This document shows, piece by piece, positions 16,101-56,200 of a DNA stretch of 64,000 nt. The translations under genes and the position numbers were made by a program. Below the pieces are notes generated by a model. The model did no database searches, was not told where the DNA came from, and saw only the letters and a list, made by a program, of their open reading frames with translations. The first letter of the stretch is position 1; each line of letters opens with the position of its first letter. The DNA lies in assembly GCA_949752735.1 (NCBI GenBank), contig OX457037.1, forward strand, positions 71,973,329 to 72,037,328, read 5' to 3'. The DNA is from Lumbricus terrestris. Lineage: Eukaryota; Annelida; Clitellata; Crassiclitellata; Lumbricidae.

Positions 16101-19100
16101 CATGGACGCCGTCCATGACCGTCCAGGCACACTTTAAGCCCTGAAAGTATATCAACTATTCTAGTCTGCAATAATTTTAATATACAAATAAATAGTTTAC
16201 CGAACGTGCATTAATGCATGTGTTATGACGCAGGCATTGTAAGAGCAAATTTCATAGTTTGTCTCACTGCATGCTTACTGTTTCACTGATCAAGTAGGCC
16301 TATATTAATATGCAATGGGTGAGTAGGCCATAATATCTAATGAATGAATCTGGTGCCCACTGCCAAGTCATTTACTGACTTATTTGATGTTGAGCAGCCG
16401 ATATCGCCTTGTTAGGAATCACGTAAAAGGGTGACAATGCTAAAACTGAAATGTATAATGTATAACTGTAGGCCTATTTAATGGAAGACTTTATGTCTGT
16501 TCCTTTCAGTCAGAAGCTTCGGATCTCAATGATAGGAAATCGACCGATGTTCATATGAATTCTGAATACAAGGTAAACTGAATAAATATTAGCGTCTGTG
16601 ATAGTATGATAGACCTACATGTATGTCACAACTCATTCCATCGTACAAATACAGATAAATATAATAATTTTTCGAAATTGTCAGAGCCGTCATTTCACAG
16701 TTTGCATAATGCATTATGGTTTCCAGAGTTGGCAGTCCAACGTTACACAGGTAAGCTGCAGGATTACCGATAGATCTAATTTTTGTATATAAGAAGACTA
16801 ACTCACATGATTGATGATTCGCAGTGCATCTGTTGACGTCGCATGATTATGTAAGCGGGTTCCACTGTCTATACATACGCCTTATGCCTGGCATTGTCTG
16901 GGGTTGCTCAGATGCGTTTTATCGCTACTTTCAAACCGTTATTCAAAACGGAGGATGGTTCGGCAGCGCTTCCGAGTAGTAATCTTGAAGAGGCGCTATA
17001 TGAGTCTTCGTAATGAATTAATGAATCTAGACACTTATAGAATCTCACACGATCACTCTAGTCTGTGCTAAGAAATTATGTTAAGTTACTTGTTTTTGAT
17101 TAGGTCTATATTGTTTTCAATAAAACTGTGTTGCTATTGTTCTTCAGTCGGCGATTGTCATCGAAGACAATGATCAGAATACTGCTTTTGTCCGATTGCA
17201 GACATTGACAAAGTTTGACGTCTTCGTAAGTGCTTTGTTCCGAATGATAGGCTACCCCACGCAATACAAACGTTCAACAGCCTGACTTGCAGTGGCGGCG
17301 TCAGGGGGAGGCAAAGCCCCCAAAAGGTCATCAGGTTTTTTTGCACAGGGAAAATTAAATATTTTCATGAGATTTCGACCAAACGACTAAAAAAAGGTCG
17401 TCAGCTTTTTTTGACCGGAAACATTATATATTTTCTTGAGATTGTGTGACCAAATGACTAATAAAAGGTCATCAGAAATTTAGTCGAATGAAAATGGAAA
17501 ATTTCCTCCGCGATTCGTCCCTCTCAACCAGCCGCCTCCAAAACTGAAATCTTGGCGCCGCCACTGCTGACTTTGTCATGTCTTATCTTGGTTTAAAATT
17601 CCTTAATTAACATTTTCTTCCATTATGCAGACTAGTGTATAAATATGCTAATCATTGATTTATGCCGTCTAATAGAAAGTGTGAAGATGAGACGGTGAGG
17701 TAGAGGACTGGTCGCTAGCCCTCAAATGCCGAGACTGAGAAAATAACGTCGCTCAACTCCACACACATTGACTGACAAAGTTTGATCTTGTGACATCTGG
17801 CTCGAAAATTTCTGCAGACTTTTCTAGTCAAATTTTCCAATAAGTTTTTCTCCCTGAGCTCACCCAAAAACACACAATGACAATGTTGCCTTTTTATCAG
17901 ATTTTACTGCACAACCTTTCGTTACATTCCGGTCCTCCATGGTAAATTACCATAATCAAATGACAGTGACCTTTTTACTGTCTTTCACTGCACGCGATTG
18001 CTTGCACAGCTGCACAAATTCATTTACAATTGCACATTTTATGTCCAACTACAAGTTTTAAAAAGCTCTTGTTTGTTTCGTCGTAGGGTCTGTCTTATCT
18101 CGTCTTCAGCAGTCAACCGAGTCTCAGTCTCGTTAGCAACGGAGCCGAATGCATCATGATCAGCAAACAGTTCTACCTCGACAACTGCACTCAACAGCGC
18201 AGAGATCAATTGCGCTTCGAGGTATACACCTACATTATATCCGACTACTAACAATAATTATGCACAATCATGTATGTAATAATTGTAATATTAATTTTAT
18301 GTCCGTGCTGGATGTTTATCTGTTTTAAGATGGTTGACATGAATTTAAAATTCAACCCGCAGTCCGCTTGCCCGAGAGTCGAATGCTGGACGGAACGCGT
18401 TTTCTCATATTATCCCAATGGCCTCGGCTACTTATATTCGGATTTCGGAACAATTCGGAGCGGATCTATTACGTTTTGTGCTTAGGCCTAAACAGAAGTT
18501 GGATTGATAAAAATGGTCTTGCCTGCATAGAAGTAAGATTGACGAAGATATTGTTGCCTGAATAAAAGTTGGATTGATGGAAACAATTCTCGCTTCAATA
18601 GAAGTTGGATTCACGGAAGCAATTGTTGCTTAGCCTAAATAGAAGTTGGATTGATGATAATAATTCTTGGTCACTCCGTTGGGATATAACTATGGGTAAA
18701 CGTTGGCAGCACGGCCATGGACCATGATAGTTCACCCCAACGTTTATTATGCGGAAATTTGCATCTCCGCTACGGTTTAAAAACAACGCAGCGCCTATAA
18801 TTAGTGAAAAAAATGAAAAAGAAAATATTCATGGGATGGTGGTCATGTTCTTAGAGCGTATACAGTGCGATTGCAACGCCACATGCGACAGTGAACCGAG
18901 TTAAGTTTATTGCTCTTCTTACTTCAAATTTTCTTCAAATTCTGCTTCTCTCTATTTCGCTTGACTTTTGAATACATTCATGCAAAGCTTATGTTGTGCA
19001 GCTGTTCTCATGTTGACTGTCTTAGGTGTCTCCTTATCCGACGGATGAGAATCTGAAGATCGGTTTAGAGGAGAGATTGAATTGGTTGAACTATAAAGAG

Positions 19101-19133
19101 AACGTCATCGATGAACTATGCTCCAAGAGATAG
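7175..19133 (+). CDS. CNBD2-like cyclic-nucleotide-binding-domain protein, seven 3' exons
   Basis: Exons I can phase: 7175-7368, 7936-8177, 16510-16572, 16727-16750 (24-base microexon), 17148-17225, 18087-18221 and terminal 19026-19133 (stop TAG). All have AG/GT borders; phases agree throughout (phase 1 at 7368/7936, phase 0 afterwards). The first exon holds the start of a cNMP-binding beta-roll (RRGSVIVKN, then SDWLYVVKSGSVSVLKKL). The second is a Ser/Arg-rich insertion. The later ones resume the roll (FDVF/GLSYLVF, SLVSNGAECIMISKQFY), and the terminal exon begins VSPYPTDENL. Known of the family: CNBD2-type proteins bind cyclic nucleotides and are linked to sperm motility; whether this copy binds ligand is unknown. 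The 5' exons and start codon were not found. The long second intron carries the Gmr1-like element. It is convergent with the CARD-NHL gene. Confidence 0.68.
7478..7563. repeat. 9-bp tandem repeat (CTAAACATC-like)
   Basis: About ten imperfect copies of a TCTAAACAT unit in the intron after the first recognised CNBD2-like exon. Confidence 0.85.
7630..7730. repeat. Short dispersed repeat, LINE-tail-like
   Basis: The block AAGCCAAGCGCGGG...TTATTCACGAGCGCTGCGTTG also occurs at about 23170-23240 and 55250-55320. A related block at 35240-35285 is the 3' end of a minus-strand LINE, so these are probably LINE 3' remnants on the - strand. Confidence 0.4.
8625..9195 (+). repeat. 5' LTR of the Gmr1-like element
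   Basis: Starts TGTGAG and ends near GGTTGAC(A). It is offset from the 3' LTR by a constant 6846 bases at both ends, so there is no net indel. It contains a purine-rich GACAGACAGACGGACAGA tract. Confidence 0.92.
9200..9217 (+). promoter_or_regulatory. Primer-binding site, tRNA-Leu type
   Basis: TGGTGGCAGCGGTGGGAT is complementary to the 3' end of a eukaryotic tRNA-Leu acceptor/T-arm (ending ...CCGCTGCCACCA), from memory of that tRNA. It lies four to five bases after the LTR, as expected for minus-strand priming. Confidence 0.8.
9257..9436 (+). repeat. Ten 18-bp tandem repeats in the retrotransposon leader
   Basis: The unit is TTGGAGGAATATTTTCAG with a few substitutions, repeated exactly ten times between the PBS and the gag start. 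The 18-base period keeps a frame open (LEEYFQ repeats), but the gag start lies downstream at 9721, after stops in that frame. Confidence 0.95.
9721..15357 (+). CDS. Gag-Pol polyprotein, Gmr1-like, 1878 aa
   Basis: Single intact frame. Residues about 95-355 are a highly charged Glu/Arg/Gln coiled coil. About 380-545 is the capsid region, whose C-terminal part (about 455-545) resembles SCAN domains. A CX2CX4HX4C zinc knuckle is at 641-654. An aspartic protease with DSGT is at 765-768. The integrase has an HHCC finger (H1031, H1038, C1068, C1071) and a D1101/D1161/E1197 triad with D35E spacing, followed by a GPY/F-type C-terminal module. RT has YVDD at 1612-1615 and RNase H uses D1763, E near 1805 and D1830. 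Integrase precedes RT, as in Ty1/copia, while the RT is gypsy-like: the Gmr1 arrangement. Gag and Pol lie in one frame, so no recoding signal is needed between them. All catalytic residues are present, so the element may be active. Confidence 0.95.
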   Translation: MEKLTEQKQASIKKMSSDRLIKLLIEEGLDVEEVEEMSRENLMGALAEVWLKKEAEEKGAVGGVEEKPIEKPPAPMSMEALMQFMMMREEQRRQEEKEKEEQRRQEEKAKEEQRRQEEKAKEEQRRQEEKERKQEEKERKQEEKEKEEQRRQQEKERAERAEKIRQEKEEQRRQDEKERRQEEKVRAEQAERMRQEEIQMQKQQFQLQLEQLKKDRDEAERRRMELMIEYERARKSDEEIRKQQIEEQKAREEDKEAMRLAELQRAEEIRQEELKMEKENLEKAEREREEQLELEQKKLALKEAQLREMAIEKEERRRQLELLQQKIEQEELRREEDQNRLKKRDEDDRRSREESERNRIRESETMVSKIKKIGDAMKHVLPKMPYDMMEVPLYFETVENAFNSFTVEKQFWVKLLLPLMTPRARTVLNRLSFDDLDNYDIVKEHLLKEFKLTAREYRSRFGDARKTAEETYTMFTARLKNLLNYYVRSRRVGKSYEKLFDLLVADKLKECLPAGPLQFVLAKEGTECFEASNVAELADVHVNNRIGLMFQDKPKYEAWGNSSKQPRWNSNNKETGNQARNNEARNDGAPGRQFGQDRREATGDRQMYSRIPVMGRQRENNAAYNYRRESTEQRGIVKKRCQNCQSDRHLIKDCKVPPRMTNLRNRFTRSAENLRVNQIQVMNAPNQSEEQDNRETEVKSVMKCTPQFTIQREIVNSAPIKDTGRETESKDECQRTKKSLLQHVNVEIRGNDDSCHPMQVRALIDSGTEIPVINEELLKGATVEEIGRVHLQCVAGEPIPAKLVKIEVRMSCHNEGGDLKDKGVNIAPYLTLVCASIPAVLCKDNKEKFLLHPEIIAELKEVPPVSILQGELQANVTTRAQSRRREVEEGEEEQLNESLLDDDTKSDDEQSVQEEEEGVTSGSNEIEEEMVACERDDYDDSGSDSEMDTSMRDLFAENTSDERQLADAKKFEEQQRNDESLKSWWKIAEDKGSEFSVVNGLMYKKHQMLDQLVYQLVLPKERRIQVMELAHESVFGGHLGEEKTRERIKLSFVWPRMRRDVVKFCKSCEKCQLKARSLVMDRVPITPIPREDVPFRRMTMDVVGPIEPTSAAGHKYCLCIVDSCTRWPTIFLMKSLTAKAVCEALMKLFMDVGVPSVITSDRGTNFTASLTREFLKLMGCCPRFDSPGHPEAAGLVERWNQTFKKMIHHVVVENPRQWHKIIPFTVWALREVPNATTGVAPYLLVYGKLPRGPLTILKESWTKEINLPPNIGVQPAKYLKNLRADMEKALTFAESCAEEKQKQYASQYNKRAKDKEFEPGENVIVLYPTSTNKLISRWHGPCTVLQRRSKYSYLVDMNENGRRIIHANKMRKFITRTLSCGLIVEEDDEFGSVVEIPLKEDYSETKQKSLQLDYEQIGHLTSEQQKQLLDVLNRYADRFSDQPGLCTLVEHEVVLRPDFREKEFAAYRIPLIYRAEVEKQIQEMLKENIIQPSSSRMASPLVIVKKKNGSLRLACDYRYINSFTENCRYPMPIVNDVLSKVGKSKFISVMDCRSAYWTCPVKKSDQWKTAFVTHNGLYEFTRVPFGMINSGRTFVKAINMILQPIHDFTEPYVDDIAVHSNDWDIHLRHLELFLKQIRLHNVTLNLKKCVFGKSEVKFIGHLIGSGKKMMNPDRIDSLINLKKPETRKEVKQVLGFFGFYRQFICNFAEIAKPLTDLTSKKVPENIIWTDAHQKSFDSLKQIVLSNVILYMFEVGKPFNLYCDSSDFAVGAVLSQVDNEGIERPVSFISQKLTDTQRRWATIEKEAYAIIWALNKLKEILIGSKINVFTDHNPLVYLTESMSKSAKLVRWSLSLQNFDILLNYKKGKLNVVADCLSRL
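15451..15468 (+). promoter_or_regulatory. Polypurine tract
   Basis: AAAAGAAAGGAGGGAGGT sits two bases before the 3' LTR and is the expected plus-strand primer. Confidence 0.85.
15471..16041 (+). repeat. 3' LTR of the Gmr1-like element
   Basis: Same sequence as 8625-9195 by eye. Its terminal base is C where the left copy continues CA, so the exact end is uncertain by one base. Confidence 0.92.
17290..17566. mobile_element. hAT-like MITE (copy A)
   Basis: Inverted ends CAGTGGCGGCG / CGCCGCCACTG. Target duplication CTGACTTG on the left and CTGACTTT on the right; in copy B both sides still read CTGACTTG. Internal ACGACTAAAAAAAGGTCGTCAG-like modules are repeated. The insertion predates the A/B duplication. 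Confidence 0.85.
18500..18660. repeat. Imperfect tandem repeat around AGAAGTTGGATTGATG
   Basis: Four to five copies of a roughly 37-base unit in the intron before the last CNBD2-like exon; also present in copy B at about 50955-51150. Confidence 0.55.
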
Positions 19134-20459
19134 CCCAGCCATGCAGCTGTTGCTTCATAGTTTATGTGTTAAAGAACACTATGTGCTCTAGTTTCGATAG
19201 TTCGAGACAACAACAGCGATAGTAATGATGATGACGATGATGATGATAGTTATTTATTTATTCATTCTAAAATTTATATATCGTTCATTGACAGTGCCTA
19301 ATTAGAGCAGTGGCGTAGCCAGGAATTTATCATGGGGGGGGTTTATGGCCGGATACCCTGTTTTTTGCTAATTTGCTTACTTAAATGGATAAATAACCCC
19401 CAAAACACCTTTTTCCGGAGCCAATGAGGGGGTTTAACCCCCGAAACCCCCCTTGCCTACGCCACTGAATTAGAGGCTTCTTCAGACCAGCCAAGGTTAA
19501 CTAGGAAGATTTAAGCAACTGGCAAAAACCAGATGCATCATTCCGTGGGATTAAGCTCAAGCGGGAGATCATATTTTGCTGGGTCCAATAATCAAGAAGG
19601 CTTGACGCTGCCTGAGAGAGTAGCAGACTCGTCGAACAAGGAGTTTCCACTAACCGAGATGCTTAGCGCTATTAATAGCCTACTTTTATGTAGACAACGA
19701 AAAAATTTAGATTTCGCGTAAAATTGTTTATTCAGATTGCTCTGATATTATTCACAAGTCCACAGCATGAGTCGTTCTAAGTTCTACGGATTTCTGCGAA
19801 CGTGCATTCCAATGTGTTCGCTTGAAATGGTAAGATGTTTAATCTTGCGTGGTAAGCTCCTCGATCTGCAATGACGTGTTTAGACATTCCTGTCTCATTC
19901 TAAGACAGTTTTGGAGTTGCTGGAGTTGGGAGCACCGCTGAGTAGGCCTATCGTGTCGTATCTAAAATGTCATAGCCTAGAGCGACTCTCAGGATAGATA
20001 ATTCAGAGGCGTTTTCAACGCAAAGGTCCCCGGAGGAAAGGAAATGTCTTGAAAGAACGAAAGAATGCGGGGGAATTTCATACATGAGCCTAAGCCCGTA
20101 GTAGAGGAGGAATTAAGCCATTCCAATTGAAGAGACCGTCACAGCACATATTCACGACATCGAGCAGACCCAGCAGAGGAACAAAGAAATCCTCATGATC
20201 GGCAGAGCGTAAAGGGCGAGCAGATGTTGCGATGGCCACGTTGCAGCTCTAACATAGGCCTGCAGAAAATATTATAACGTCATCATGCTATAATTATATA
20301 ATAAAACGCTGAACACAACTGGTCATAATCTCCGATAATTCTCAAAATTGAAATCATCCAAAGTTTCTTAGACATAATTAACGACAGTTCGACAGTCTAC
20401 GTTGCCTTACAATATACCATAGAACATCCCGGAGACTATTAGATGTCGAGTGACCTATT
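19134..20459. other. Intergenic stretch between the convergent genes
   Basis: Follows the CNBD2-like stop and holds the 3' flanks of both genes, a (GAT)n-like patch near 19228-19245 and one MITE. No other coding exon supported. The matching stretch in copy B (51666-53055) has an extra segment near 52270-52500 that looks like a small MITE. Confidence 0.5.
19308..19467. mobile_element. hAT-like MITE, 160 b, absent from copy B
   Basis: Ends CAGTGGCGTAGCC / CTACGCCACTG; 8-bp target duplication AATTAGAG at 19300-19307 and 19468-19475. Copy B has a single AATTAGAG at the matching place (about 51838-51845), an empty site. Confidence 0.93.
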
Positions 20460-20982
20460 ATAGTGTAAAGTTCTCTACCCACGTCGTCGGTCTTATGTCA
20501 CCGGGCTGGGAGAACGAGGCAGCAAAAGCCTGATGAATGCGAGCAGGAGCCGAAGCCTGATAATCTAGAGAATCAGTAGGCAGTACAGTGTGTAGAACAG
20601 AACGATTCGTTGAGCAGAGGTCAGATATTGGAGGGGTTGCAGGTATCTTACCAGGATGCTGCTCGAGTGGTGTAAGGGACATGTAGTCGACGGTTCTCGG
20701 TCTGAGAACGCCCGCCGCCAAGGGTTGAGCTGGGTCCGACAGCTCCCTGCCCTCGTCTGGTTCTATGTGGCCCGACACGAGAGCATCGTGCCCCAATTGC
20801 ATGTTTCTTAATTGGGCCTTCGATCGTATTTCGTCATCGGGCACAGATGTAATTATGGGCTCTATCTCTACGTGATTGGATGCACCTTCTACGCGGTCGT
20901 AGGCAGAGTCATTAATGTTCAAATACGCGGGGCTGTGATTAAGCATTGTGTTATGGAGAGGAATGTTTTGCTTTGTTGCCAT
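20458..20982 (-). CDS. ORF of unknown function filling an LTR-like element, 174 aa
   Basis: Open from an ATG at 20982 to a stop that lies just outside the element, so the protein reads through its 3' terminus. It is Pro/Ser/Thr-rich in the C-terminal half, with no zinc knuckle or recognised domain. I do not recognise it. It could be a Gag-like accessory ORF of a retroelement or a chance frame. The similar layout of the 33884-35888 element makes chance a little less likely. Confidence 0.3.
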   Translation of the reverse strand: MATKQNIPLHNTMLNHSPAYLNINDSAYDRVEGASNHVEIEPIITSVPDDEIRSKAQLRNMQLGHDALVSGHIEPDEGRELSDPAQPLAAGVLRPRTVDYMSLTPLEQHPGKIPATPPISDLCSTNRSVLHTVLPTDSLDYQASAPARIHQAFAASFSQPGDIRPTTWVENFTL

Positions 20983-21296
20983 TTTGGCTTGATCAGTTCA
21001 CACACAAATGACACACAAAGTTTCGCAACTTAGATCACCACTCGTGGTGTATTGTAATTAATTCAAACTCGCAAACAAACAGTCAGATTTTACCATAATT
21101 AACTAAAATTGCCATGTGACGAAACATGTCGGCCAACAACTCAGAACGAAAAGGGAAGAACTTAAATCTTCAAGCGTTAATTACCAGTCGGTCGCTATGG
21201 GCAATCCATTCGCGCCCGCTAGATCACAGCGGTCGGCGCCATACCGTTTGGGCCGCCAACATGTGACACGTGAGGCTAAAAGGCTGGGCCTTTACA
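20464..21296 (-). mobile_element. LTR-like insertion (TG...CA, 4-bp duplication ATAG), 833 b
   Basis: Begins TGTAAAG and ends CTTTACA, flanked by ATAG at 20460-20463 and 21297-21300. Copy B has a single ATAG followed by a different short sequence. It may be a solo LTR or a non-autonomous LTR element; no internal direct repeat was found. It lies just downstream of the CARD-NHL stop codon. Confidence 0.7.
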
Positions 21297-21345
21297 ATAG
21301 TCATCTGTGGCAGATTAGACTAACATACTGATAATATTGAATAAA

Positions 21346-42013
<20,668 letters not shown>

Positions 42014-42087
42014 CTACAGAAATTCGAGTTTTTATAAGAGGATGGAGAAAACAGACGGATTATATTGCATTGTTTCGCATGATCCAA

Positions 42088-43245
42088 AACCAAAGCAAAA
42101 AGTTATATAGTAGGAGTAAACATATATCCTACCTGTTAGTGTCATTGTTCAAAACAAAACAGATGAAAATTAATTTGCAAAAATAAATAGGGCCTACACG
42201 CGGCAGTGACTTTTTCGACTTTTCTTCATTTGGGGTAATACGATTAATACGGGGTATACCCAGTATAAGCTTACTCTATTTCGTGACACTGGCAGAAACA
42301 GACGCTTTCATAAAAGTAGCTTGTAATCTAACCTAACGCATTATTTGGTGTCAGCCTGTCAGGCAAATCTGTAGCCTGATTTGGTTAATATCTTCGTGTG
42401 AGAACTAGTTCTTGTGTGGACTTGTTACAGCTTTTTCTGAGTTTAGCTATTTAGGCTAATTTTATTGAATTGTGATAAACCTTTAAACTCTGATTCTTCA
42501 ACATCTACGTCATAAACGCTGCGTCGAACCGAATTCCAAAACAGAAGTAATGTTCCACGAGTTGGGTGTGTCTTCGCTTTCTCAATGTCCATGCTGAAAA
42601 TAAGAAGATGTGTGCAACGTTACAGCAAGTTAGCTAAGGATTGTATTATGCAGTGCGGTTGTTGCTATTTATTCTAGGGCATGCAGACAGTAGGCCTATA
42701 CTTGAACTGATGAATTAACCATAGAGTAGGCCTATCTATGACTACATCTGGGAAAACAAGCCAGACAGAATGAGCATTAATTTTCGAAGATTTAAGAGCC
42801 AAAAGGTAGTTATGGATCACATCATCACAAGTGCATATGTTAGCGATTTCAAGGTGTCTACAAAATGATCTTAAGGTCTGAATATAAATTTATTAAACAC
42901 AAACTTTAGTCATGATGTAGCCCGAGGCGTTTATCAACAAAACCGATCCTGTCTATCACATCCGTTGCAATAATCCGACGATGGCAACAACCGTAGGCTA
43001 TACTATAGGCTATAGGCCTAAGCTTACACCTATTAGACCTATGTTATAGGCTATACCTTTTGAATTGGTCTAATAACGGAAATCGCTGGTTCTGCAATTA
43101 AATAACAATGTCATCAAATGGTCCAAAACATGAAACCTAGCCCCTATTTACACAATATTGAAAAATACACAAATCTACACCGTAAATATATGAACTTCCT
43201 CAATACCTTACAGACTAGCTGCGTGGGTTTTCCCAGTCACTTTAA
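42088..43245. repeat. Duplicated segment, partner of 1838-2930
   Basis: Same orientation and order as the left copy, with several extra TA-flanked hexamer-type insertions (near 42192, 43005 and 43034-43055). Probably the start of the second tandem unit. Confidence 0.75.
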
Positions 43246-43572
43246 ATACGCGCTCGTCAGCAATGCGTTACTCAAGCATGTTCAAGTTACAGCCATGCAG
43301 CTTGATAGGCCTACTTAAAGTGAATGCGTAACACTTGAATGATTGTACACAGTACTCTGTACAGAGCAATCTGTAGAGCTCACTCTGGCAATCGGGTGCC
43401 GGGGTGCGTGCATAGATTGCATATCAACGATCAACCAAAACAATATTGAAAGGCATTTTATAAGCAGAAAATGTGAACGTCATTGGCCTAAATGCTCAAA
43501 GGAAGAATGAGTTTTGTTTGTCTCACTGTAGTCCTCTGAAACAGAAAGGACGTCTATGAAAATGATACGTCT

Positions 43573-44110: not shown

Positions 44111-44199
44111 TGGCTAAACCAAGGAGAGGTGGAGAAAACACAACATCACTAAGACGATTCTATCCGGTATTGCCGATTGGCGACTGAAAGGACCCGACC

Positions 44200-47100
44200 A
44201 TTCCACGAACGCTGGGTCAGACCCAACGGTAGTTTGAAAACCCAAAACAACGAAATATGATCCTGCCAAATTTGTGGCGTCGAAGGCTCGAAGAGGTCAA
44301 CTTCAAAGCAGCCATCCGTCTTATAGTCAGCGAAGATAAGCCGGCACTAGACACACCAGAAACGCTGGCCGCGCTGAAGCGTAAGCACCCGTCAGCCCCG
44401 GCGGACAGAAGGTCTCCGTGCGATCCAGACAGCTCAGACCGTTTCATCGCGTTGCAGGTTTCCAAAGAAGAAGTAGCTAAGGCGATCTCCTCTTTTCCAG
44501 CGGGTTCAGCCGGCGGTCCAGATGGTATTACTCCACAGCACCTGAAGGATCTTGTTTCATTTGGAGTGGATAACAACATCGAGCAACATCTGTCCGACCT
44601 TGTCAACCTGCTTTTAAAAGGAGGTCTTCCTGAAGAGGTGAATGAGGTCATCTATGGAGCAAACCTTTTAGCCGTAAGCAAAAAGGATGGAGGCATAAGA
44701 CCGATCGCGGTGGGCTACACATGGCGCCGCCTGGCAGCGAGGTGTGCTAATTCATACGCCGAGACAAGACTGTCTCAACTGATCGCCCCCATTCAACTGG
44801 CAGCCGTTCACGCGACACGCCGATGGGTGACAACGTCCTCGTGAAGCTGGATTTCACAAACGCGTTTAACACTCTGCGCAGAGATTCTCTTCTAGAGGCA
44901 GTGGCTAGAGACATTCCAGAGCTCTACCGATTTGCTCACGCTGCCTACTCGAACCGTCAGCTCCTGCGTTATGGATCGAACAACATACGATCTGAAGAGG
45001 GGACACAGCAAGGCGATCCTTTGCGTCCTCTGGAGTCTGGAGTTTTGCCTTGTCTTACAACCGCATTTGGTCAAACTGAGATCAAATCTGCGTGTTGGTT
45101 ACCTGGATGACCTGACATTGGGTGGTAGCCAGTGATATTTTCATTAACGATAAGTAAAATTAGAACTAAAGTGGTCTATAGCTGCTCCAAGATGCTAATG
45201 GTATGGAGCAGACCTGCTGACCGGACCGGTTGAAGCTGGGCAGCATGACACGAGACAGACTCAGACAGAGAGTGGCGTCGGACACCTACGGGCATTTAAC
45301 CCAAGGATTTTGATGATGATGATGAAAATTAGAACTGAAAATATTGATTTCCGTTCAGTGTAACTTCAACTTTAACTGAAATTATTTTGAGAACGAAAAC
45401 TGAAATAGAACTGAAATTATGCACAGCGAACGAAAATTAGAATAAAAACCAAAATTAATTTTAGAACGGAAATTAATGAAAAAATTGGAAATTTTAGTTC
45501 ATAGCCTCTAAAAGGCGCAGGTACTTTCTGACTCTTAAAACTTTGTTATCTTTGACTTGGCACGTGCTTCAGTGTGCAATTTATTATGGCCTTTTGCATT
45601 TGGACCTTTGCTGTAAGTTAATTTTCAGCATCATGGTAAGAACGTGGTTATGTGAAAATCACTTTGAATACCGGAGTGAAAATATTCCAATCATTATAAC
45701 TTTGTGCGGCCTGCTCACTGGGCTAAATGGAAAAATCATGTATTGGATTGCTTCAATAGGCCTACTGGAATGAAACAGACAAATAGGCGAAGCCTAACAT
45801 TACAACGCTTGTACCCTAAAACGACGTTTCAGGATGTTTCTGGCAAACTTTTCAACAATTTAATTTGTCTTCTTCGGTGAATAAGCGACACAGAATGCTA
45901 AGAAATATATTCAGGGTTGGCCCGAAACTTTCATGTGACTGATTCGAGTCAGCGGCTTCACCACAGAGACAGAACAAGCGCTGCATAAATGTGTAAAAGA
46001 AAGAAATGTTACGTGGTCTACCAATTCCCAATTCAATGGAATATGATAAGGGGAGTGTGATTGGCTATTGTCAACATGTTAGCGGATTGGTGCCATCCAG
46101 CAACTATTGCCAATAAAATATTTCAGGCAATTATACAAACTAGATCTGTAGTTCAAATTGCTTGTTTTTTTTTGTAAAAATTACGCATGATTATTATTGG
46201 AGGGAAAGACGGCAAGTCTACGGTAGCACGGCTCCACTTGCAGAAGATGTTGAAGCTAACTCCGGCTTTTCAAACTTGTAGAAGAAACAAATATTTTGTC
46301 TGGGTGAAGATTTCTAATAGGTGAGAGAAAAAACTGTCTGCTAAAGTCGCTGAAAATAGGTGGTTCTTTTAAAATTAAAAGGTATATCGATATTGAAAAT
46401 GTTCGAACTTGGTTTAGGCCAACTCTAATTTGAGGCAAGTTCTAGACCTATAAAGAAGTAAAACTGAAATTATTTCTATGCAAGAACTGAATTGAGAACT
46501 GAAATTATTCTAAAAACTGAATTAGTAGTATAACTGAATTTTTTTGAAGAACTGTAATTGAACTAGAACTGAAATTGAGGACGTCCGAACTGAAATAGAA
46601 GTAAAACGAAAATTATTTGCTGAAGTAAAATATCACTGGTGGTAGCAGGGAGACAGTGGTCGCCGATGTCCTTCTGATTGCGCAAGAATCGAGGAACCTT
46701 GGTTTGGCATTAAACCGCAGCAAATGTGAAATCGCCTGCCACAACTCACATGCACTACTTGATGACCCGGCGTTTGAAGGTTTTACGAACATGACCTTAG
46801 AGGAGATGACCTTGCTGGGTGCACCTCTGCTGCCAGGTCCAGCTGTGAAGTTGGTCGTCGGATTGAAGGCCAACGATCTAGATAGAGCAATCACAAGGCT
46901 CTCCATGCTCTATACACATGACGCTGTGGTTCTGCTCAAAAACAGCTTGAGCGTTCCAAAGATGCTTTACAGCTTGCGCACAGCTGTATGTACTGACTGT
47001 CCGGGTTTGGTTCGGTTCGACAACTTATTAAGAGAAGGTCTATCAACCATCTTGAACGTGGACCTTGACGACGACCGCTGGCTCCAGGCTTCTTTGCTTG

Positions 47101-47222
47101 TCAGAGATGGTGGCCTTGGAGTTCGTTGTGCATCAACGCTGGCACTATCTGCCTTTCTGGCTTCTGCCGCTAGCACGAGCGAACTGCAGGCCTGCATCCT
47201 ACATACAGAGTCAGCTGATTAG
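44200..47222 (+). pseudogene. Non-LTR retrotransposon reverse transcriptase, broken and interrupted
   Basis: Three frame segments belong together: 44257-44820 (KEEVAKAISSFPAGSAGGPD, then DGGIRPIAVGYTWRRLAAR), 44823-45127 (VLVKLDFTNAFNTLRRD, TQQGDPL, and in another frame GYLDDLTLGG, the catalytic box) and, after a nested transposon, 46650-47222 (RNLGLALNRSKCEI...). The catalytic box and fingers/palm order are typical of LINE-type RTs. The clade is uncertain; the GSAGGPDGITPQHLKD block is like a large animal RT family. No endonuclease seen. A frameshift with a small deletion near 44820 and the insertion make it non-functional. Confidence 0.82.
45130..46638. mobile_element. hAT-like element nested in the RT pseudogene, 1509 b
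   Basis: 12-base inverted ends CAGTGATATTTT, flanked by GTGGTAGC at 45122-45129 and 46639-46646. Both subterminal regions carry many GAACTGAAATTA-like repeats (45150-45500 and 46450-46615). It contains a LINE 3' scrap at about 45180-45330 (RTRLRQRVASDTYGH, then a TGATGATGATGATG tail). No transposase seen. Confidence 0.88.
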
Positions 47223-47317
47223 TGTGGTTCAACAATACATGGTAAAAAATAAAGTTCAAGCTGAAAACCAGGGCGCCCTCCCAGTTTGTTAGACCTTTCA
47301 ATAGTATTATTGAGACA

Positions 47318-49484
47318 AAATTTCAGCTTCATATTCCAACTGGAAGGCGGTGCTCAACGACTGTCTTACTTTGCATGGGCCAATGAAAAGACGTTAATTG
47401 TAGAAATCAATGTGTTGAGCATATATTCCAATACAATTGTGCTTTATTTCAAGATAGATGATACATTACTGTAATATGACAATATGTGTGACACTTAAAC
47501 AATTGGTGAGCTTGAAATATAAAATTTCAGTAGGTTTTAAATGTGGAAAATGTAAAAAAATGTAAAAAACATCGTTAAATCCACGGATGTCTATTGTTCT
47601 CGTTTTATGACTCCAAATATACGATGACGTCTACAATGTAGAAGGCTTTGCAAGCACAGTGTCAACAGTATATTTCTTTGTTGATTGAGTGGGGACAGCT
47701 GTTCTATTTGCCTCAACCACTTGGAGAAAATACTGTTTCTTCTTCATCAGTGATGAGTCAGTTTAATTCCTTGAACAACTTCACACTTCTCTCAGCCATG
47801 TCGTTTACCACTCTCAATTGCTGACTTCAGCCCTACCCTGCTGATAATCATCATTGTCAGGCTATTGCACTGGTGTAAGTATAAAAAAGAATCACCAAAT
47901 TTCAGGCGTGGCAGTCAGTGTTCACTGGGTTGCAAACTCGCCCAGGCAATCCCCCTCCTTCTGGATGGCAGCACTACCGTCAACATCATTTCACTAGCAT
48001 TTGCAGTCATTCCGTAAAAAATCTTCACCTTATCTGAACCATATCAGGCAGATGGCAGCATAATAGTGTCAGACATTCAGCCTCATCTGAAAGGCACTAA
48101 GTATTGATAATTTTCTAGAACATTCATGGCAGCAACGTTGAGTTCCTACAAATAATAGTCACCTGAATCAAAAGTCCTATATCAATCAAAATTGACAGAT
48201 CGTGGCCTGGAGTTTCAGCAGCAAGATGATACACAAAAGGATCAATCTGAGTTTTTCTTTTTCCTTAGATTGAATATTTCACGTTGATTGCTAAATCGTA
48301 CAATTATTTTGATGATATGCAGTAACCTGGCCATTCAAGAGCAAGAGGAGACCTGTATCCATGCCTTTGAGTGAAGAAAGGAACCAAATCACACAAATGG
48401 ATGAATCTGAGATTCTTCCCTCATCCTCAGATTGAATACTGTACGTCGCGTTGATTGGTATGTCGGCATATTGTGATGGCATACAGTAACCTGGCCATTC
48501 AACGTGCGTGGTAAATTGGGCTCTCCAGTTTCTTATTGAGGGCTGACTCCCAAGGACAACCATTGACACCTCAATGACATCTTGGTAGTCGTCTCTGAAA
48601 TTGACTTTAATTTCAGCAGTCTTCTTGATGAAACTGATCGCTCTCTCATGGTAGGCTTCAGTAGCGGATACGACTTCCAGTACTGGTATGTTGTCACGTG
48701 TCACACCATCCCACACAGCTTTAAATCTCTTTAAGATTGGATTCTATTTTTGGATTAGATGGGCAACAACACAAAATGAAGATTTTGGCTTAAATCAACT
48801 CCATCACGATGACGACAGCAGGCCAACCACAGGAACATTTTACATATCCTGTTTTTCAGAAAAACGTACACTTCACTAAAACGTCCGGTGTTGTGTCAAA
48901 GATCAAGTCTTAGCCATTATCAGCGAGTCTCAGTAACTTCAGAAGATGATGAATGACCTTGGATTTAAATTATATCCTGTCATAGAGGGACATTTGGGCA
49001 TACCAAAGAGTTTAGCGACACCATCACCTGAAACTAGCACTCAAAGGCGGTCAACATTTCCAGTGTTCTGCAAGTGGTTAATTTGGTACAAATTCAGATC
49101 TTACAGCTTCAGCATGCTCCATCTTGGCTTCTTAAGCACTCCATATGAATGGTTTTCCGTGAAAATGGCAGGACAAAAGGATCGCACATAAGCGCTGCAG
49201 TAATTGTGACCAACAATCTCAATGCTTCATGATCAGATCATAAGGAGTGTTATTGCTATCAAAATGCACTTGTCACTTGATGGCTAAACAGCTGTCAAGT
49301 AGTTAGCACTGACTGTAATAAGTATGATAGTGCAACAGAATCTATTTCAAGTTCATCTACATGACAAGGGTTGAGGTTTTTGATCAAGCTCAAAGACATC
49401 AAGATTTCTTGCTAATACAACTACATGGTAATATTTCGATGTCGTTGAGCACCGCCTTCCAGTTGGACTGGGAAGCTGAAATTT
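47318..49484. mobile_element. Fold-back-type element with about 55-160-b inverted arms
   Basis: AAATTTCAGCTTC...CCAACTGGAAGGCGGTGCTC at 47318-47365 is repeated in complement at about 49435-49484, with weaker similarity further in. The right arm ends where the copy B duplication begins. No clear target duplication. Confidence 0.6.
48291..48716 (-). pseudogene. Decayed ORF of an uncharacterised repetitive family (HARWM-type)
   Basis: Open 141 codons: GVTRDNIPVLEVVSATEAYH, then INFRDDYQDVIEVSMVVLG-like text (actual start VNFRDD) and a shift. In another frame the next block reads YHAR, stop, MARLLYAITI. I recall an unnamed high-copy invertebrate family with ...RDDYxELxELxxxFLG...PGAxHHARWMAKAIYxLKI... 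in this order. A second decayed copy of the MARLLH block at about 48300-48360 shows an internal tandem duplication of about 180 bases. Non-functional. Confidence 0.45.
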
Positions 49485-49529
49485 GGTCTATCTTGTTTTT
49501 CACAAAATTGTGTTGCTATTGTTCTTCAG

Positions 49530-51665
49530 TCGGCGATTGTCATCGAAGACAATGACCAGAATACTGCTTTTGTCCGATTGCAGACATTGACAAAGTTTGA
49601 TGTCTTCGTAAGTTCTTCGTTCCGAATGATAGGTTATCCCACGCAAAACAAACGTACAACAGCCTGACTTGCAGTAGTGGCGCCAGAGGGACTAGAGGCT
49701 ATGCCCCCCCAAAGGTCATCAGGTTTTTTGCACAGCGAAAATGAAATATTTTCATGAGATTTTGACCAAACCCCCTAAAAAGAGGTCATCTTGTTTTTTG
49801 GGGGAAAAATGAAATATTTCCTTGAGATTTCGACCAAACGACTAAAAAAGTCGTCAGCTTTTTTGACTGGAAAAATGAAATAAATTTTCTTGAGATTGTG
49901 ACCAAATGACTATAAAAAGGTCGTCAGAAATTTGGTTGAATGAAAACGGAAAATTTCCTCCGCGATTCGTCCCTCTCAAACAGCCCCCAAACTAAAATCC
50001 TGACGCCGCCACTGCTGACTTGTCATGTCTTATCTTGGTTCAAAATTCCTTAACATTATTTTCGTTCATCATGCAGACAAGTGTATCGGTATTAATTATT
50101 GATTTATTCCGTCTAATGGAAAGTGTGAAGATGAGACGGTGAGGTAGAGGACTTGTCACTAGCCATCAAACACCGAGACTGAGAAAATATAGTCGCTCAA
50201 CTCCACACACAGTGACTGACAAATGTTTAATCTAGTGCCTTTTGACCCGAAAATTTCTGAAGACTTTTCTAGTCACATTTTCCTATAAGTCTTTCTCCCT
50301 GAACTCACCCAAAAAGTCAAAACACACAATGTAACCTTTTAGCAGATTTTTACTGCACAATCCTTCGTTCCATTCCGAGCCTCCATGGTAAATTACCCTG
50401 ATCAAATGACAGTAACCTTTTTACTGTTTTTCATTGCACTGTCGATTGCTTGTACAGCTGCACAAATTCATTTACAATTGCACATTTTATGTACATTGTA
50501 CAACTGCACGTGTAAAAAAGCTTTTGTTTGTTTCGGTAGGGTCTGTCTTATCTCGTCTTCAGCAGTCAGCCGAGTCTCAGTCTCGTTAGCAACGGAGCCG
50601 AATGCATCATGATCAGCAAACAGTTCTACCTCGACAACTGCACTCAACAGCGCAGAGATCAATTGCGTTTCGAGGTAGGACTACACTATCTCGACTACTA
50701 ACAATAATACACAATCGTGTATAATAATAATTATTGTAATATTAATTTTTATGTCCGTGCTGGATGTTTATCCGTTTTAAGACGGTTGAGTGTGTGTATG
50801 GGTGTGTGACATGAATTTAAAAATCAACCCGCAGTCCGCTTGCCCTAGAGTCGAATGCTGGACGGAACGCGTTTTTTCATAATATCCCAATGGCCTCGGC
50901 TACTTATATTCGGATTTCGGAACAATTCGAAGCTGATCGATTAAGTTTTGTGCTTAAACAGAAGTTGGATTGATAAAAATGGTCTTGCCTGCATAGAAGT
51001 AGGCTAAGATTGACGAAGATAGGCCTATTGTTGCCTGAATAAAAGTTGGATTGATGGAAACAATTCTCGCTTCAATAGAAGTTGGATTCACGGAAGCAAT
51101 TGTTGCTTAGCCTAAATAGAAGTTGGATTGATGATAATAATTCTTGGTCGCTCCGAATTGTCCGCTACGAATAATTGTCCGGAAACCATTGGGATATAAT
51201 TATGGGTAAACGATGGCAGCACGGCCATGGACCATGATAGTTCACCCCAACTTTTATTATGCGAAAATTTGCATCTCCGCTACGGTTTAAAAACAACGCA
51301 GCGCTTATAATTAGTGAAAAAATGGGAAAAGAAAATATTCATGGGATGGTGGTCATGTTCATAGAGCGTATACAGTGCGATTGCAGCGCCACATGCGATA
51401 GTGCACCGAGTTAAGTTTATTGCTCTTCTTCAAATTTTCTTCAAATTCTGTTTCTCTCTATTTCGCTTGACTTTTGAATACATTCATGCAAGGCTTATGT
51501 TGTGCAGCTGTTCTCTTGTTGACCTATGTTGTGCTGTTGTCATGTTGACTGTCTTAGGTGTCTCCTTATCCAACGGATGAGAATCTGAAGATCGGTTTAG
51601 AGGAGAGATTGAATTGGTTGAACTATAAAGAGAACGTCATCGAGAAACTGTGCTTCAAGAGATAG
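49530..51665 (+). pseudogene. CNBD2-like 3' gene fragment (last three exons)
   Basis: Exons 49530-49607, 50540-50674 and 51558-51665 duplicate 17148-17225, 18087-18221 and 19026-19133 with the same lengths, phase 0 borders and intact splice sites. Protein changes are few (for example DELCSKR becomes EKLCFKR at the C-terminus). No copy of the earlier cNMP-binding exons exists between 43.2 and 49.5 kb, which is transposon sequence, so this is most likely a 5'-truncated copy. It could be spliced to an unrecognised upstream exon. Confidence 0.75.
49672..50014. mobile_element. hAT-like MITE (copy B)
   Basis: Orthologous to 17290-17566; perfect 8-bp duplication CTGACTTG at 49664-49671 and 50015-50022. 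One internal GGTCATC...GACCAAAC module is duplicated relative to copy A, making it longer. Confidence 0.88.
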
Positions 51666-53053
51666 ACCAACCATGCAGCTGTTGCTTCACAGTTTATGTG
51701 TTAAAGACTCTATGCTCTAGTCTAGATAGTTCGAGACAACAACAGCGATAGTAATGATGATGACGATAAATTCGATAATGATGATAGTTATTTATTTATT
51801 CATTCTAAAATTTATATGTCGTCCGTTGGCAGTGCCTAATTAGAGGCTCCTTCAGACCAGCCACGGCTAACTAGGAAGATTTAGGCAGCTGGCAAAAACC
51901 AGATGCATCATTCCGTGGGATTAAGCGCAGCTCAAGCGGGAGATCGTTTTTTGCTGGGTCTAATAATTATCGAGAAGACTTGACGCTGCCTGAGAGGGTA
52001 GCAGACTCGTCGAACAAGGAATTCCCCTAACCGAGATGCTTAGCGATAATTAATAGCCTACTTTTCTGTAGACAACGAACAATGTTTTATTTCACGTAAA
52101 ATCGTTTATTCAGATTGCTCGGATATCATTCACAAGTCCACAGCATGAAGCATGATTCGTCCTAAGTTCTACGGATTTCTGCGAACATGTATTCCAATGT
52201 GTTCGCTTGAAATGGTTAAGATGTTCAATCTTGCATGGTAAGCTCCTCGATCTGCAATGATCTGTCTTTGGTGCTCCACTCCCTAGAAACTCTTCTCAGA
52301 CATTCATGCAGGGCTTTTTAGCGTGCAGTTGTACACAAAAAATGTGCAGTCCTAAATGGATCTGTGCAGTTGTAGAAACACTTCTGTACAGTTAAAACTA
52401 GTGAAATAGGTCATTGTCCTGCGAGTGGAAGTAATTTTCCATGGAGGATGGGAAAGAAAAGAAGGAGTTTGTGCAGCTCTAAAAATTCCTTTAAAACATT
52501 CTAAGACAGTTTTATTTGGCCGTGCTGGAGTTGGGAGCACCGCTGAATATCGTGTCGTGTCTAAAAGTCACAGAGCGTCTCTCAGAATAGTCAATTAAGA
52601 GGCACTTTCAACGCAAAGGCCCCGGGGAAGGAAATGTCTTGAAAGGGCGAAAGAATGCGGGGGAATTTCATACATGAGCCTAGTCCGTAGTAGAGGAGTA
52701 AGCCTTTCCAATTGAAGAGACCCGTCACAGCAAATTCCCGGCATCGAGCAGACCCAGCAGAGGGACAAAGAAATCCTCATGATCGGGAGAGCGTAAAGGG
52801 CGAGCAGATGTTGCAGCTCTAACATAAAGAAATTATTATAGCGTCATCATGATATAATTATATAATAAAACGTTGAACACAACACTCCGATAATTCTCAA
52901 AATTGAAATCATCCAAAGTTTCTTAGACATAACGACAGTTCGACAGTCTACGTTGCCTTACAATATACCATAGAACATCCCGAAGACTATTAGATGTCGA
53001 GTGACCTATTATAGTCGTCAATAGAACATCAAGCGACGTTTCATAATGATGTA

Positions 53054-53267
53054 ATGTTAGTCTAATCTGCCACAGGTGAAGAAGCTTTTAACAGAATGAT
53101 ACCCATTTTTAAGCAACCAAATTCTATAAACAGAGTTGCTGCAGGTGTCAATTTATACTCCTATCAAAGAGTAGAAAAGCTCACCGTGTATCCGGCTACA
53201 GCTGATGCGTAAGTCAATTATTGGTAGACTAAACAGTAGCTTCATCTGTGGCAGATTAGACTAACAT
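53054..53267. repeat. Inverted repeat at the 3' end of the gene B NHL exon
   Basis: ATGTTAGTCTAATCTGCCAC at 53054 is complementary to the segment ending at 53267, about 30 bases per arm with a spacer of roughly 150. The right arm overlaps the last codons and stop of gene B. Copy A has only the right arm. Confidence 0.75.
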
Positions 53268-56200
53268 ACTGATAATATTGAATAAATTATTAAATTCAAA
53301 GATCAAAATACGTTGATCGTCCAATTCGTTGTTAGCCACAAACAGTCGACCATTTATCTCATCCAGAAGAATTCTCCGTGGAAGTCGCAGTCCGTGTTCA
53401 TCTTTGGAGAGAATTTCTCTCTTTAATTTCAAATCTGGATCCAACAACAAAACCCGACTGTTTTCTTGGTCAACGACTAACACGAATCCATTTCCATCGA
53501 CGGACAAATAAATTGGATGAATCATTTTTTCGATGGACGATCCACGTTCTCCACCAAATGACTTCTTAGGGTTTCCATCTGAATCCACTATGCACACTCT
53601 GTGCATAGCATCACCATAGTACGAGTCATGACTGATCAAAAAATCGCCATTGATCAGTTTTATGGCATGCAGTATATAATGAGTACATGTATCGGGCGAT
53701 AGATGTATACTTCGGATCAACTGCCCATCTGGTGAATACTCTTTTAATTCCCTTAGCGCAAGAATAGTTAAAATGATATTTGATTCATATGTAACAGACA
53801 TACTTCTGACCGGACCATCTTCTTCTGACCATTTCTTTGTTAATTCTCCCGCTGGATCAATTCTCAAAATTTCGCTCGCGTTACTGAGTGCTTTAAAATG
53901 GCTGATGTAGAGACATTTATTTCTAGCACAGGACACCAAATCAGTTGGATTGGCCAATTCTTTCAGATTCCACCGACGCCTTAGACCGAAATCCATCAAA
54001 TCGTAAACTTCAACGTTACTCTCTTCACTCGCAACAAACAATTCTTTGCCTAATATCGTCATTCCCCCTATGTATATGGCTCTTTGTTTAAACCTCTGTT
54101 TACTCTTTATTTTGGAATTTGTGCCGATAGTGTGAACTAAAACTCGATCCGATTGGTATCGAAGTTCAGCTGAAAACAGAAATAAAATATTAGAAGCTCT
54201 CAGAATATTAGAAAGCAGCTATTCTGCCATTTAAATTTGTTGGTTATTACGTTGAGATAAGCCTAAATAATCAGGCTACTATTTCCAAACGCCGGAAAGC
54301 ACTTAAAAAGGAAACATGGAAGTGAGGCGGAAGGTCGATATGACGATGATGATATTAGAAAATGTACCATACGCAGGTAAGCACTGAAATCGAAAGAAAA
54401 AGAAATTCCTTAATGCCACTTAGACAGTTGTTGTTATAAGTAGGTTATCATTAAGCAATTTCCCCCTGATTTCCCTCCGTTTCGCTCTGCTTCGATTTGT
54501 GTGCTTGTTTTGCTCCCTGACTTCTCTTCGCCTGGTTCGCGTGGATCGCTCCCCGCCCTCCGTTTCGTTCTGCTTCGCCTGGTTCGCTCTCTCATCTCAG
54601 TTCTCAGCGTCGTCTGGGTTCGCTCTCCTTCGTCTGTTTCGCCTCGTTCACCTGGTTTGCTTGGTTCCCTCCACTCCATGCATCCGCATCGCCTGGTTCG
54701 CTTGGTGCTCCCTCCCTCCGCTTCTCTCTGCTCCGCCTGGTTCATTCCCTCACAACTTCTAGAGTCTAGACCAAGTCTCTGCCTATGTCTACCCTGCTGG
54801 CATTACAAGGCTTATAATTTTTTATTCATAGCCTGCCAATAAGGTCTAGGCTGTCTTTGCTTCTTTATGAGTTTAAATTGATCCGGTTTAAAGATTTATT
54901 CGGGTTTCTAGTAATATAGCCTACATCGGGACATGTTGTAAAGTGTTACATCTAACTCATTGGCGGAGACTTAGTCTAGAAGTTGGGTGGGACGAACGAG
55001 CGGCCGAAGGACAATTAGGCCTATCGCCGAGGCGCGACATTTTCGGCGGACGGCCGAGTCGCCGACCCTCGACATTTTCCATTTTCACCGACGAAATTTT
55101 CTGACGACCTTTTTCTTAGTAATTTCAACTCATTTGGTCCATTTTTGTCCTGCCAAAATAGCTGATGACCTTTCGGCCTTTCCCCCTTTCTTATTGATGT
55201 GGATGGACTTATCTTCTTATAAAGTTACCTGTATAATTCACCAATTAAAGCCAAGCGCGGGGCACTCACGAGCGCTGCGTTGAGTTAGGAGTTAGAAGGG
55301 TTGTCCTTGAGCGTGGGTAAGAGTGACTAAAAAGAGTAAATTGACTCTGGACCCAAGTCCCGAGAAAGGCAGCTTATAAATTGTGATTTAAGGGTCAATG
55401 AGACGATTTAAAGTGAAAATTCAAGAACTTAAAGTTAAAGTATGCAGCGTCGTAACATTGTATGTAGGCCTATGTATGTATTTGAGCAGCTCCATTGGCT
55501 TCCTCTAACTGCGCGCATTAAGTTCAAAATTCTCATTTTGGTCTCTAAAGCACAACGGGGTCTTGCCCCAAAATATCTAGCCAATTGATGGAATTCGCAG
55601 GCCAGTTTCAGCTTCCTCGCATCGTCCACTCCGCTCTTTAAACAGATTTGATCTTATAGTACCGCCTACTAGAACGGCTATGGCTCAGTCCCGTTCCTTT
55701 ACATCAATTGGCCCCTCTCTTTGGAATACGCTGTCTCCTTCTATTCGATCTCAACTTCTGACAGGTAATCCTTCCTCCTCATTTTCTTTTCTTAAAACCT
55801 ATTTCTTCTCTTGTGGTCTTGCGCACTGGGAGCGCCTCTGAACGGTTCACCCTACATGTAGTAGAGGCGCTTTATAAATGTTTTTATACAATACAATACA
55901 AAATGTGCACTTGTTATAGCACCCCTTCAAGCTGACTACTCAGAGGCGCTTTCGACTCCAGCGCGGACACTGAATCGGAGTTTCACGCCGAAGCGCTGAG
56001 CAATTGCGAGTGAGGGACTTGCCCAAGGTCCCTACGAAGTCGAATGAATGTTTTGTGATAACATTCAGACTATGGCGCACATTGTAAATGATTGTATAAC
56101 ATCTCGCTTTCCGGGCGGAATGCCCGTCCTACACGAGGCCGGTGGGGCTGCTGTTGAGTGGCTCTGCGTGAACTGCAAAAGCTAAATAATATTAAATGTT

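Follow-up and report, generated by a model that had tools for sequence, protein, structure and literature searches.

In ciliates, huge numbers of TA-bounded internal eliminated sequences (IESs) are removed in a programmed, somatic process that leaves a single TA. Cut-and-paste transposons of the Tc1/mariner group (Tc1, Sleeping Beauty, ZB) target TA, duplicate it and, upon excision, leave a few terminal bases between the two copies; footprints of 2-4 bp for the group and of 0-3 bp for ZB have been given (PMC7913693). Passer, a pogo element, inserts at TA within AAGTACTT, and its footprints measure 0-4 bp (PMC9976928). Here, we analyze a 64-kb stretch of the genome of the earthworm Lumbricus terrestris (contig OX457037.1; hereafter, the window), in which the word TAGGCCTA and its relatives occur, in part, at sites where duplicated copies of the same sequence read plain TA. 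We propose that these words, which we refer to as scars, are probably heritable excision scars of pogo-superfamily cut-and-paste transposons with a TA target and GG...CC ends. They resemble Tc1/mariner footprints in their TA target, duplicated TA and few intervening bases but, unlike these, retain GG/CC and are present genome-wide, at an inferred density of roughly 0.7 per kb, rather than as single assay products. Like ciliate IESs they are TA-bounded and hugely numerous, whereas the worm scars appear to be inherited and to keep element bases. Among the papers listed by searches of the open PMC library, none concerned scar load at the scale of a genome, and none of the best 10 of 12 papers matching TAGGCCTA had a title or abstract on such scars; the chemistry of such scars is already known, and it is their estimated load and their tie to particular transposon families that look new.

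Expected word counts in the window were calculated with a second-order Markov model. There are 33 exact copies of TAGGCCTA compared to 0.63 expected, close to the original prediction, made from the letters alone, of about 30 copies against about one, and each of the 15 other palindromes of the form XY-GGCC-rc(XY), where rc is the reverse complement, occurs 0-2 times. The seven-base words TAGGCTA and TAGCCTA together occur 46 times (5.6 expected) and are a class no rarer than TAGGCCTA. Among the single-base variants of TAGGCCTA, only TAGACCTA and TAGGTCTA are far above expectation (15 together versus 1.6), and because TAAGCCTA, the other G>A change, shows no excess (2 versus 1.6), TAGACCTA/TAGGTCTA look like a primary class of their own in the window rather than simple decay, a contrast that is weaker in a 170-kb sample of the genome (TAGACCTA/TAGGTCTA, 23 versus 4.0; TAAGCCTA, 13 versus 3.8). 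The words TAGGGCCTA and TAGGCCCTA contribute 3 copies versus 0.24 expected.

Lack of enrichment genome-wide had been named in advance as evidence against the original prediction, yet the excess extends throughout the genome. Across 1.056 Gb in 331 contigs, TAGGCCTA occurs 354,398 times and its reversed word 8,418 times, while TAGGCTA (229,626) and TAGCCTA (230,724) sum to 460,350 and their controls number 42,721 and 42,487; these ratios are flattered by the CpG held by the reversed control words of both lengths, and the near-equality of the TAGGCTA and TAGCCTA counts carries no evidence, since strand symmetry produces it for any word. In the sample, comprising 17 stretches of 10 kb from four large contigs (two stretches with 3,140 masked bases in total), TAGGCCTA was found 67 times compared to 1.42 expected and the seven-base words 85 times compared to 12.8. 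After background subtraction, we infer approximately 0.7 million scars genome-wide.

Scars in the window are mildly clustered overall, and nested or tandem scars are seen at 42994-43053 and 59477-59513 (TAGGCTATACTATAGGCTATAGGCCTA; TAGGCTATAGGCTA). A further word, TACATGTA, is also in excess, with 11 copies versus 0.97 expected in the window (5469, 5475, 16616, 21750, 26453, 33199, 41293, 53684, 55853, 58027 and 58173) and 29 versus 3.7 in the sample. Five of the 11 lie at most 8 bases from a GG-type scar and share its TA (0.87 expected); TACATGTA is possibly the scar of Tc1/mariner elements with CA...TG ends.

Presence and absence of scars were compared between paralogues using a strict test, in which words of the form TA-NNN-TA, TA-NNNN-TA and TA-NNNNN-TA were matched to a partner elsewhere, either the word itself or plain TA, with the same 14 bases on each side and at most 5 mismatches. 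The test covered the window, apart from seven intervals masked as repeats and flanks of low complexity, together with the neighbouring stretches L138 and L139. A partner was found for 14 of 52 TAGGCCTA sites and was plain TA in 12 of the 14, two of which also have the word elsewhere. For TAGGCTA/TAGCCTA, 12 of 65 sites had a partner (plain TA in six); one of 16 TAGACCTA/TAGGTCTA sites and one of six TAGGGCCTA/TAGGCCCTA sites had a partner, plain TA in both cases, and none of 14 TACATGTA sites did. By comparison, plain TA made up 7 of 63 partners for other N4 words (426 sites), 9 of 59 for other N3 words (393 sites) and 6 of 51 for other N5 words (368 sites). The excess of plain-TA partners over control words (p = 1e-7 for GGCC; p = 0.015 for GGC/GCC) is measured against a control rate that is too high, as some control matches overlap scars. 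Relative to the empty-site allele, the scars are insertions of a few bases at TA with duplication of the target, as in an excision footprint.

Several individual matches call for care: 2429 and 42727, the two sites with both kinds of partner, share a single L138 partner that reads as a later deletion; the partner of L139:7358 is the other strand of L139 itself, at 5 mismatches; and 43013 sits in an ambiguously aligning cluster. Shared sites with a small flanking indel, such as 26319/56278, are overlooked by the test. Nine pairs had been proposed from the window beforehand, and seven of them pass (18483, 19943, 21744, 22419, 51020, 51000 and 26057), with the plain-TA partner of 21744 at 53684-53685 instead of 53694-53695. 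The remaining two do not: 55465, paired with 26087, is ambiguous and lies inside a TATG repeat, and 54917, paired with 22993, lies at the end of an alignable block where agreement is mainly on the left. The sites are as follows.

18483..18490: TAGGCCTA scar; paralogue 50955-50956 is TA
19943..19950: TAGGCCTA scar, apparent gain in this copy; paralogue 52548-52549 and third copy L139 are TA
19973..19979: TAGCCTA scar; third copy L139 is TA, second copy CA
21744..21751: TAGGCCTA scar in an NHL-domain frame on the minus strand; paralogue TA at 53684-53685
22419..22426: TAGGCCTA scar; paralogue 54353-54354 is TA
26057..26064: TAGACCTA variant scar; paralogue 55441-55442 is TA
38954..38961: TAGGCCTA scar; paralogue L138 is TA
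39332..39338: TAGCCTA scar; paralogue L138 is TA
39808..39814: TAGCCTA scar; paralogue L138 is TA
4784..4790: TAGGCTA scar; paralogue L139 is TA
42188..42196: TAGGGCCTA nine-base scar; TA in the paralogue near 1935 and in L138
42452..42458: TAGGCTA scar; paralogue near 2160 without scar
43013..43020: TAGGCCTA in the nested cluster 42994-43053; TA near 2713 in one alignment, ambiguous; L138 has TAGGCTA at about this place
51000..51006: TAGGCTA scar; paralogue 18534-18535 is TA
51020..51027: TAGGCCTA scar; paralogue 18549-18550 is TA
54917..54923: TAGCCTA scar; pair less secure, where the alignable block ends
55465..55472: TAGGCCTA scar; pairing ambiguous within a TATG repeat
62399..62406: TAGGTCTA in a coiled-coil frame; +6 bases, in frame, versus the paralogue near 31427, which has CG
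2393..2400: TAGGCCTA, older than the duplication; common to 42691..42698
2429..2436: TAGGCCTA, common to 42727..42734; missing from L138 by an apparent imprecise 6-base deletion
26319..26326: TAGGCCTA, common to 56278..56285
3029..3036: TAGGCCTA, common to L138
3231..3238; 3598..3605; 6449..6456; 16295..16302; 16469..16476: TAGGCCTA, lacking an informative paralogue
33275..33282; 36186..36193; 36587..36594; 43306..43313; 55016..55023: TAGGCCTA, lacking an informative paralogue
57610..57617; 60491..60498; 61908..61915: TAGGCCTA, lacking an informative paralogue
45757..45764: TAGGCCTA, lacking an informative paralogue; inside a stretch that by eye resembles a non-LTR retrotransposon
32189..32196: TAGGCCTA; paralogue has TAGGCATA, a decayed shared scar
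39622..39629; 40720..40727: TAGGCCTA, L138 alignment uninformative
41287..41294: TAGGCCTA, with a TA in common with TACATGTA at 41293-41300

Two of these scars lie in reading frames. At 21744, six extra bases in the NHL-domain frame add an in-frame Arg-Pro (SPDTC-RP-THY, compared to SPDTCTHY in the paralogue), while the coiled-coil frame containing the TAGGTCTA at 62399 is two residues longer than its paralogue, whose TA is now CG. With regard to the polarity of the 21744 insertion, the best 5 of 40, 3 of 48 and 3 of 42 alignments to NHL proteins of known structure did not reach it; a TRIM3 match among the 40 (query 142-267) spans it.

Three-copy comparisons bear on the direction of change. 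The scars at 19943 and 19973 are each present in a single copy, the other two copies reading TA and TA in the former case and TA and CA in the latter, and with three copies and no tree the simplest reading is that a scar was gained at both sites. It had been conceded that the idea of insertion would fail if the TA-only state always arose by deletion; gains are instead indicated at these two sites, and the CA at 19973, where the third copy reads TA, leaves the earlier statement that gains occur always at TA nearly right. At 42188, both other copies are TA, but this site alone is unpolarised because the two TA copies are each other's closer relatives (92% versus 85%). Scars may also be lost, although imprecisely: TAGGCCTA at 2429 is found in two copies, and the third (L138) reads as a 6-base deletion that did not restore the original flank.

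Nine sites have the same scar class and orientation in both window copies (2393, 2429, 26319, 18631, 19676, 29677, 26448, 26792 and 27570), and scars are therefore inherited, some being older than the duplications. Shared scars at 17248, 22533 and 32189 show decay by point mutation, and only the cluster at 42994-43053 may differ in scar class between copies. Additionally, none of 79 TAGGCCTA, TAGGCTA or TAGCCTA sites falls within five younger-looking insertions that hold 694 of 4,212 TAs (p = 7e-7; p = 3e-6 for 71 sites after counting shared copies once), values that are indicative only, as the intervals were selected manually when the sites were already known. They were recognised by the identity of their long terminal repeats (LTRs), by inverted repeats, by coding frames or because a paralogue lacked them; other insertions were excluded, including the non-LTR-like stretch at 44233-47222, which holds one site (45757).

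A short series of events could generate the main scar classes. A pogo-like element would insert at TA, favouring purine-TA-pyrimidine, and upon excision the transposase would cut each 5' strand two bases into the element, each flank retaining a GG 3' overhang after TA. If both overhangs were kept and filled with no overlap, the product would be TA-GG-CC-TA, that is, TAGGCCTA; a one-base overlap whose G:G mismatch is resolved either way would yield TAGGCTA or TAGCCTA, and three bases left on one side would yield TAGGGCCTA. The net change per scar would be +6 or +5 bases. Each jump would add a scar while resident copy number could remain small, and because scars track jumps and not copy number, very many of them can accompany a small number of resident elements. 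We see an even chance that a few low-copy pogo-like families, jumping over a long period, left some 0.7 million inherited scars that far outnumber the elements and make scar formation one of the main origins of insertions of 5 and 6 bases in this genome, some adding two residues to proteins in frame. Excision of GGG ends with a stagger of three bases was set aside, as it predicts TAGGGCCCTA (0 in 254 kb) and TAGCCCTA (0 versus 1.07 expected).

Transposons bounded by TA with GG...CC ends had been predicted, and such families are resident in the genome. In a genome search with PF13358, the best 150 of 2,198 candidates were scored, giving at least 147 matches, among which were several copies of equal score with an open frame of 911 or 913 amino acids (aa). 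Over 3,982 bp, two copies of this first family share 99.6% identity, and the ends of the family read TA-GGGCAAAG...TTTACCC-TA or, in a longer reading, TA-GGGCAAAGTGACTTAATTCTGGCC...GGCCAGAATTTGGTAACTTTACCC-TA. A Pfam scan of the 911-aa frame matched DDE_1, HTH_psq and HTH_Tnp_Tc5 (a PHD match was under the Pfam cut-off), and 35 residues separate the last two D residues (DD35D); these domains and this spacing place the predicted transposase in the pogo superfamily. DD35D, TA duplication, short inverted ends, the purine-TA-pyrimidine target AAGTACTT and short footprints are likenesses to Passer. The frame exceeds the 400-500 aa given for Passer but is within the 300-977 aa given for pogo, and it has HTH_Tnp_Tc5, with HTH_psq in place of BrkDBD; HTH_psq is assigned to Fot/Fot-like elements and not to Passer in PMC7386202.

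The left end of the first family has 16 genome matches, six of them strong and ten covering the first 49 bases at 88-90%. Fourteen read intact, each adjoining TA as TA-GGGCAAA, one lacks the first eight bases and one is unread. Upstream of the 913-aa copy (L167), only a CTA microsatellite was seen. The right end is present at the expected distance in three of five copies examined (L143, L150 and L152), and a 2.15-kb relative in L160 has both ends and no frame of at least 150 aa. A DDE_1 search of the genome returned 129 matches from 140 candidates, with many long open frames in groups of equal score, and through these a second family was found that begins TA-GGGGAAGGCGGGG or TA-GGGGAAGGCGGGGCAAGACGGACC. 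Its left end has 29 genome matches, of which 22 were read, each adjoining TA as TA-GGGGAAG, and the single right end read matches the left end at 26 of 26 bases. Both ends have thus been read in L143, L150, C13:20452165 and L160 (first family or relative) and in one copy of the second family. Like other pogo elements, these families have TA target duplications and short inverted ends, and the bases retained in scars would correspond to the outer two bases of the resident TA-GGG...CCC-TA ends. Resident families with open frames and near-identical copies, one of them sharing the base preference described below, support the first of two alternatives originally put forward, namely excision scars of a very active transposon that targets TA and ends in GG...CC. 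Beside a first-family copy lies a small element (L143:601-1212) whose ends, by eye, are GGG...CCC and adjoin TA.

The second family matches the preference of the scars for a purine before TA. The preceding base is G14 A5 T3 C0 at its 22 left ends, A98 G76 T50 C16 at 240 TAGGCCTA flanks and A111 G103 T61 C27 at 302 flanks of the seven-base class, so that a purine is found at 19/22, 174/240 and 214/302, respectively, compared to 0.48 for all TAs in the window and 6/14 in the first family. For both families pooled the base is G16 A9 T8 C3, and the proportion of C in this pool is no different from that in the scars (p = 0.72). G is avoided after the scar (1/60 flanks; p = 0.0006 versus other CCTA).

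A number of observations weigh against a pogo-like origin of the scars. The first family does not show the purine bias (T5 A4 C3 G2 at 14 left ends), and the pooled purine figure (25/36) depends on the second family. The right end of the first family is absent at the expected distance from two of the five copies examined (L154 and L156), and in a third pogo group, with an 850-aa frame (L168/L169), the left boundary is off TA. TAGGTA/TACCTA, which full overlap would produce, shows no excess (9 versus 19.4 expected), and TAGACCTA/TAGGTCTA are unpredicted by GG/GG ends. Neither the window nor the 17 sampled stretches yielded a GG-ended inverted-repeat element, and comparison of the flanks of five element copies with the sequence examined revealed no site both occupied and scarred. 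The 16 and 29 left-end matches of the two families stand against roughly 0.7 million scars, a disparity that requires long-continued jumping or further, perhaps extinct, families. Finally, TAGGCCTA occurs 10 times in 9.7 kb near the two GG-ended families compared to 67 times in 170 kb, but its density is raised around Tc1 copies too (5 in 7.5 kb), and neither kind of element has more of the seven-base class nearby (4 and 2, respectively, versus 85 in 170 kb); local scar density is unspecific as a test of source.

Other explanations share parts of this evidence. The scars could derive from another Tc1/mariner-type family, perhaps extinct or unsampled, with GGC...GCC ends and the three-base stagger typical of Sleeping Beauty, which we regard as unlikely. 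Three-base annealing would then give TAGGCTA/TAGCCTA, two-base GC annealing TAGGCCTA and one-base annealing TAGGGCCTA/TAGGCCCTA, so that one end sequence yields the 7-, 8- and 9-base classes as well as joined GG overhangs do; no 6-base class is predicted, in keeping with the TAGGTA/TACCTA count, and a mixed GGC/GAC end pair would give TAGGTCTA too. However, no GGC-ended element is found in the window, the sample or the Tc1/mariner copies with readable ends, and the blunt product TAGGCGCCTA is missing from 254 kb, while GGG-ended elements do exist in the genome. We give a still lower probability to a micro-insertion process that, by repair from a template or by abortive action of a transposase at TA, writes GGCC plus TA without a full transposon. 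The very high scar-to-element ratio, the TA target, the palindromic product and the mild clustering and nesting would all fit; against it, the scars share their site preference with one resident GG-ended family, and the main classes are those expected from joined GG overhangs.

Programmed somatic elimination of germline elements, with the assembly made from soma, would account for hundreds of thousands of scars with few elements, but is very improbable given that nine paralogous pairs share scar class and orientation and that the shared scars at 17248, 22533 and 32189 decay by point mutation like inherited DNA. Short palindromes can have regulatory roles, and the words might then be an abundant functional or compositional motif (a binding site, simple repeat or assembly artefact) and not an insertion at all; we find this scarcely credible, as it is contradicted by presence and absence against plain TA in paralogues, and scars are missing from the younger-looking insertions examined and one is an in-frame exon insertion.

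Several other elements and loci were noted. Tc1/mariner copies were considered as scar sources and rejected after a reading of ten stretches: the ends are CAG in L140, L145 and L149 and CAC in L141/L142, L144, L146 and L147 yielded no ends, L143 is the pogo element, and the inverted repeats of L148 begin TTATATAGGGTG, for which a GGG end after TA is possible. A mariner-like element at 32235-33200 has inverted repeats of approximately 200 bases with CAC ends, TACATGTA adjoining its right end, and a transposase fragment with two D residues 37 residues apart by manual count; a second, at 27593-29007, has CAGGGTGGCTCAATA ends and a relative in L128. Five open DDE_3 (Tc1-type) frames of 378-383 aa lie within 21 kb in a tandem-array-like arrangement (G000:C2:31629988-31650669). 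A Gypsy-type LTR retrotransposon at 8625-16041 has 571-base LTRs that are 100% identical and a relative in L133. On the minus strand, frames at 40115-42059 by eye resemble CARD-type death-fold domains, in a block duplicated in L138; the single frame of this set that was scanned, 40432-40854, had no Pfam match. A pattern scan of viral contigs, in which the best 80 of at least 120 stretches were viewed, revealed a local TAGGCCTA cluster in a phage-like contig (L073:2626-3912; 8 of the 11 copies in the 72-kb record) that is probably unrelated to the scars, and a search of viral contigs for relatives found none.

Excision footprints have so far come from assays and single loci, and here they would form a common and recognisable kind of small insertion throughout the genome of an animal. 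The scars would record cut-and-paste activity independently of copy number, in a form that allows earlier jumps to be counted and dated even after the transposon itself is lost. They would also offer a naturally occurring collection of the ways in which GG overhangs are repaired, with products of 7, 8 and 9 bases, and could insert two residues in frame into proteins. Similar scar words are worth seeking in other genomes.

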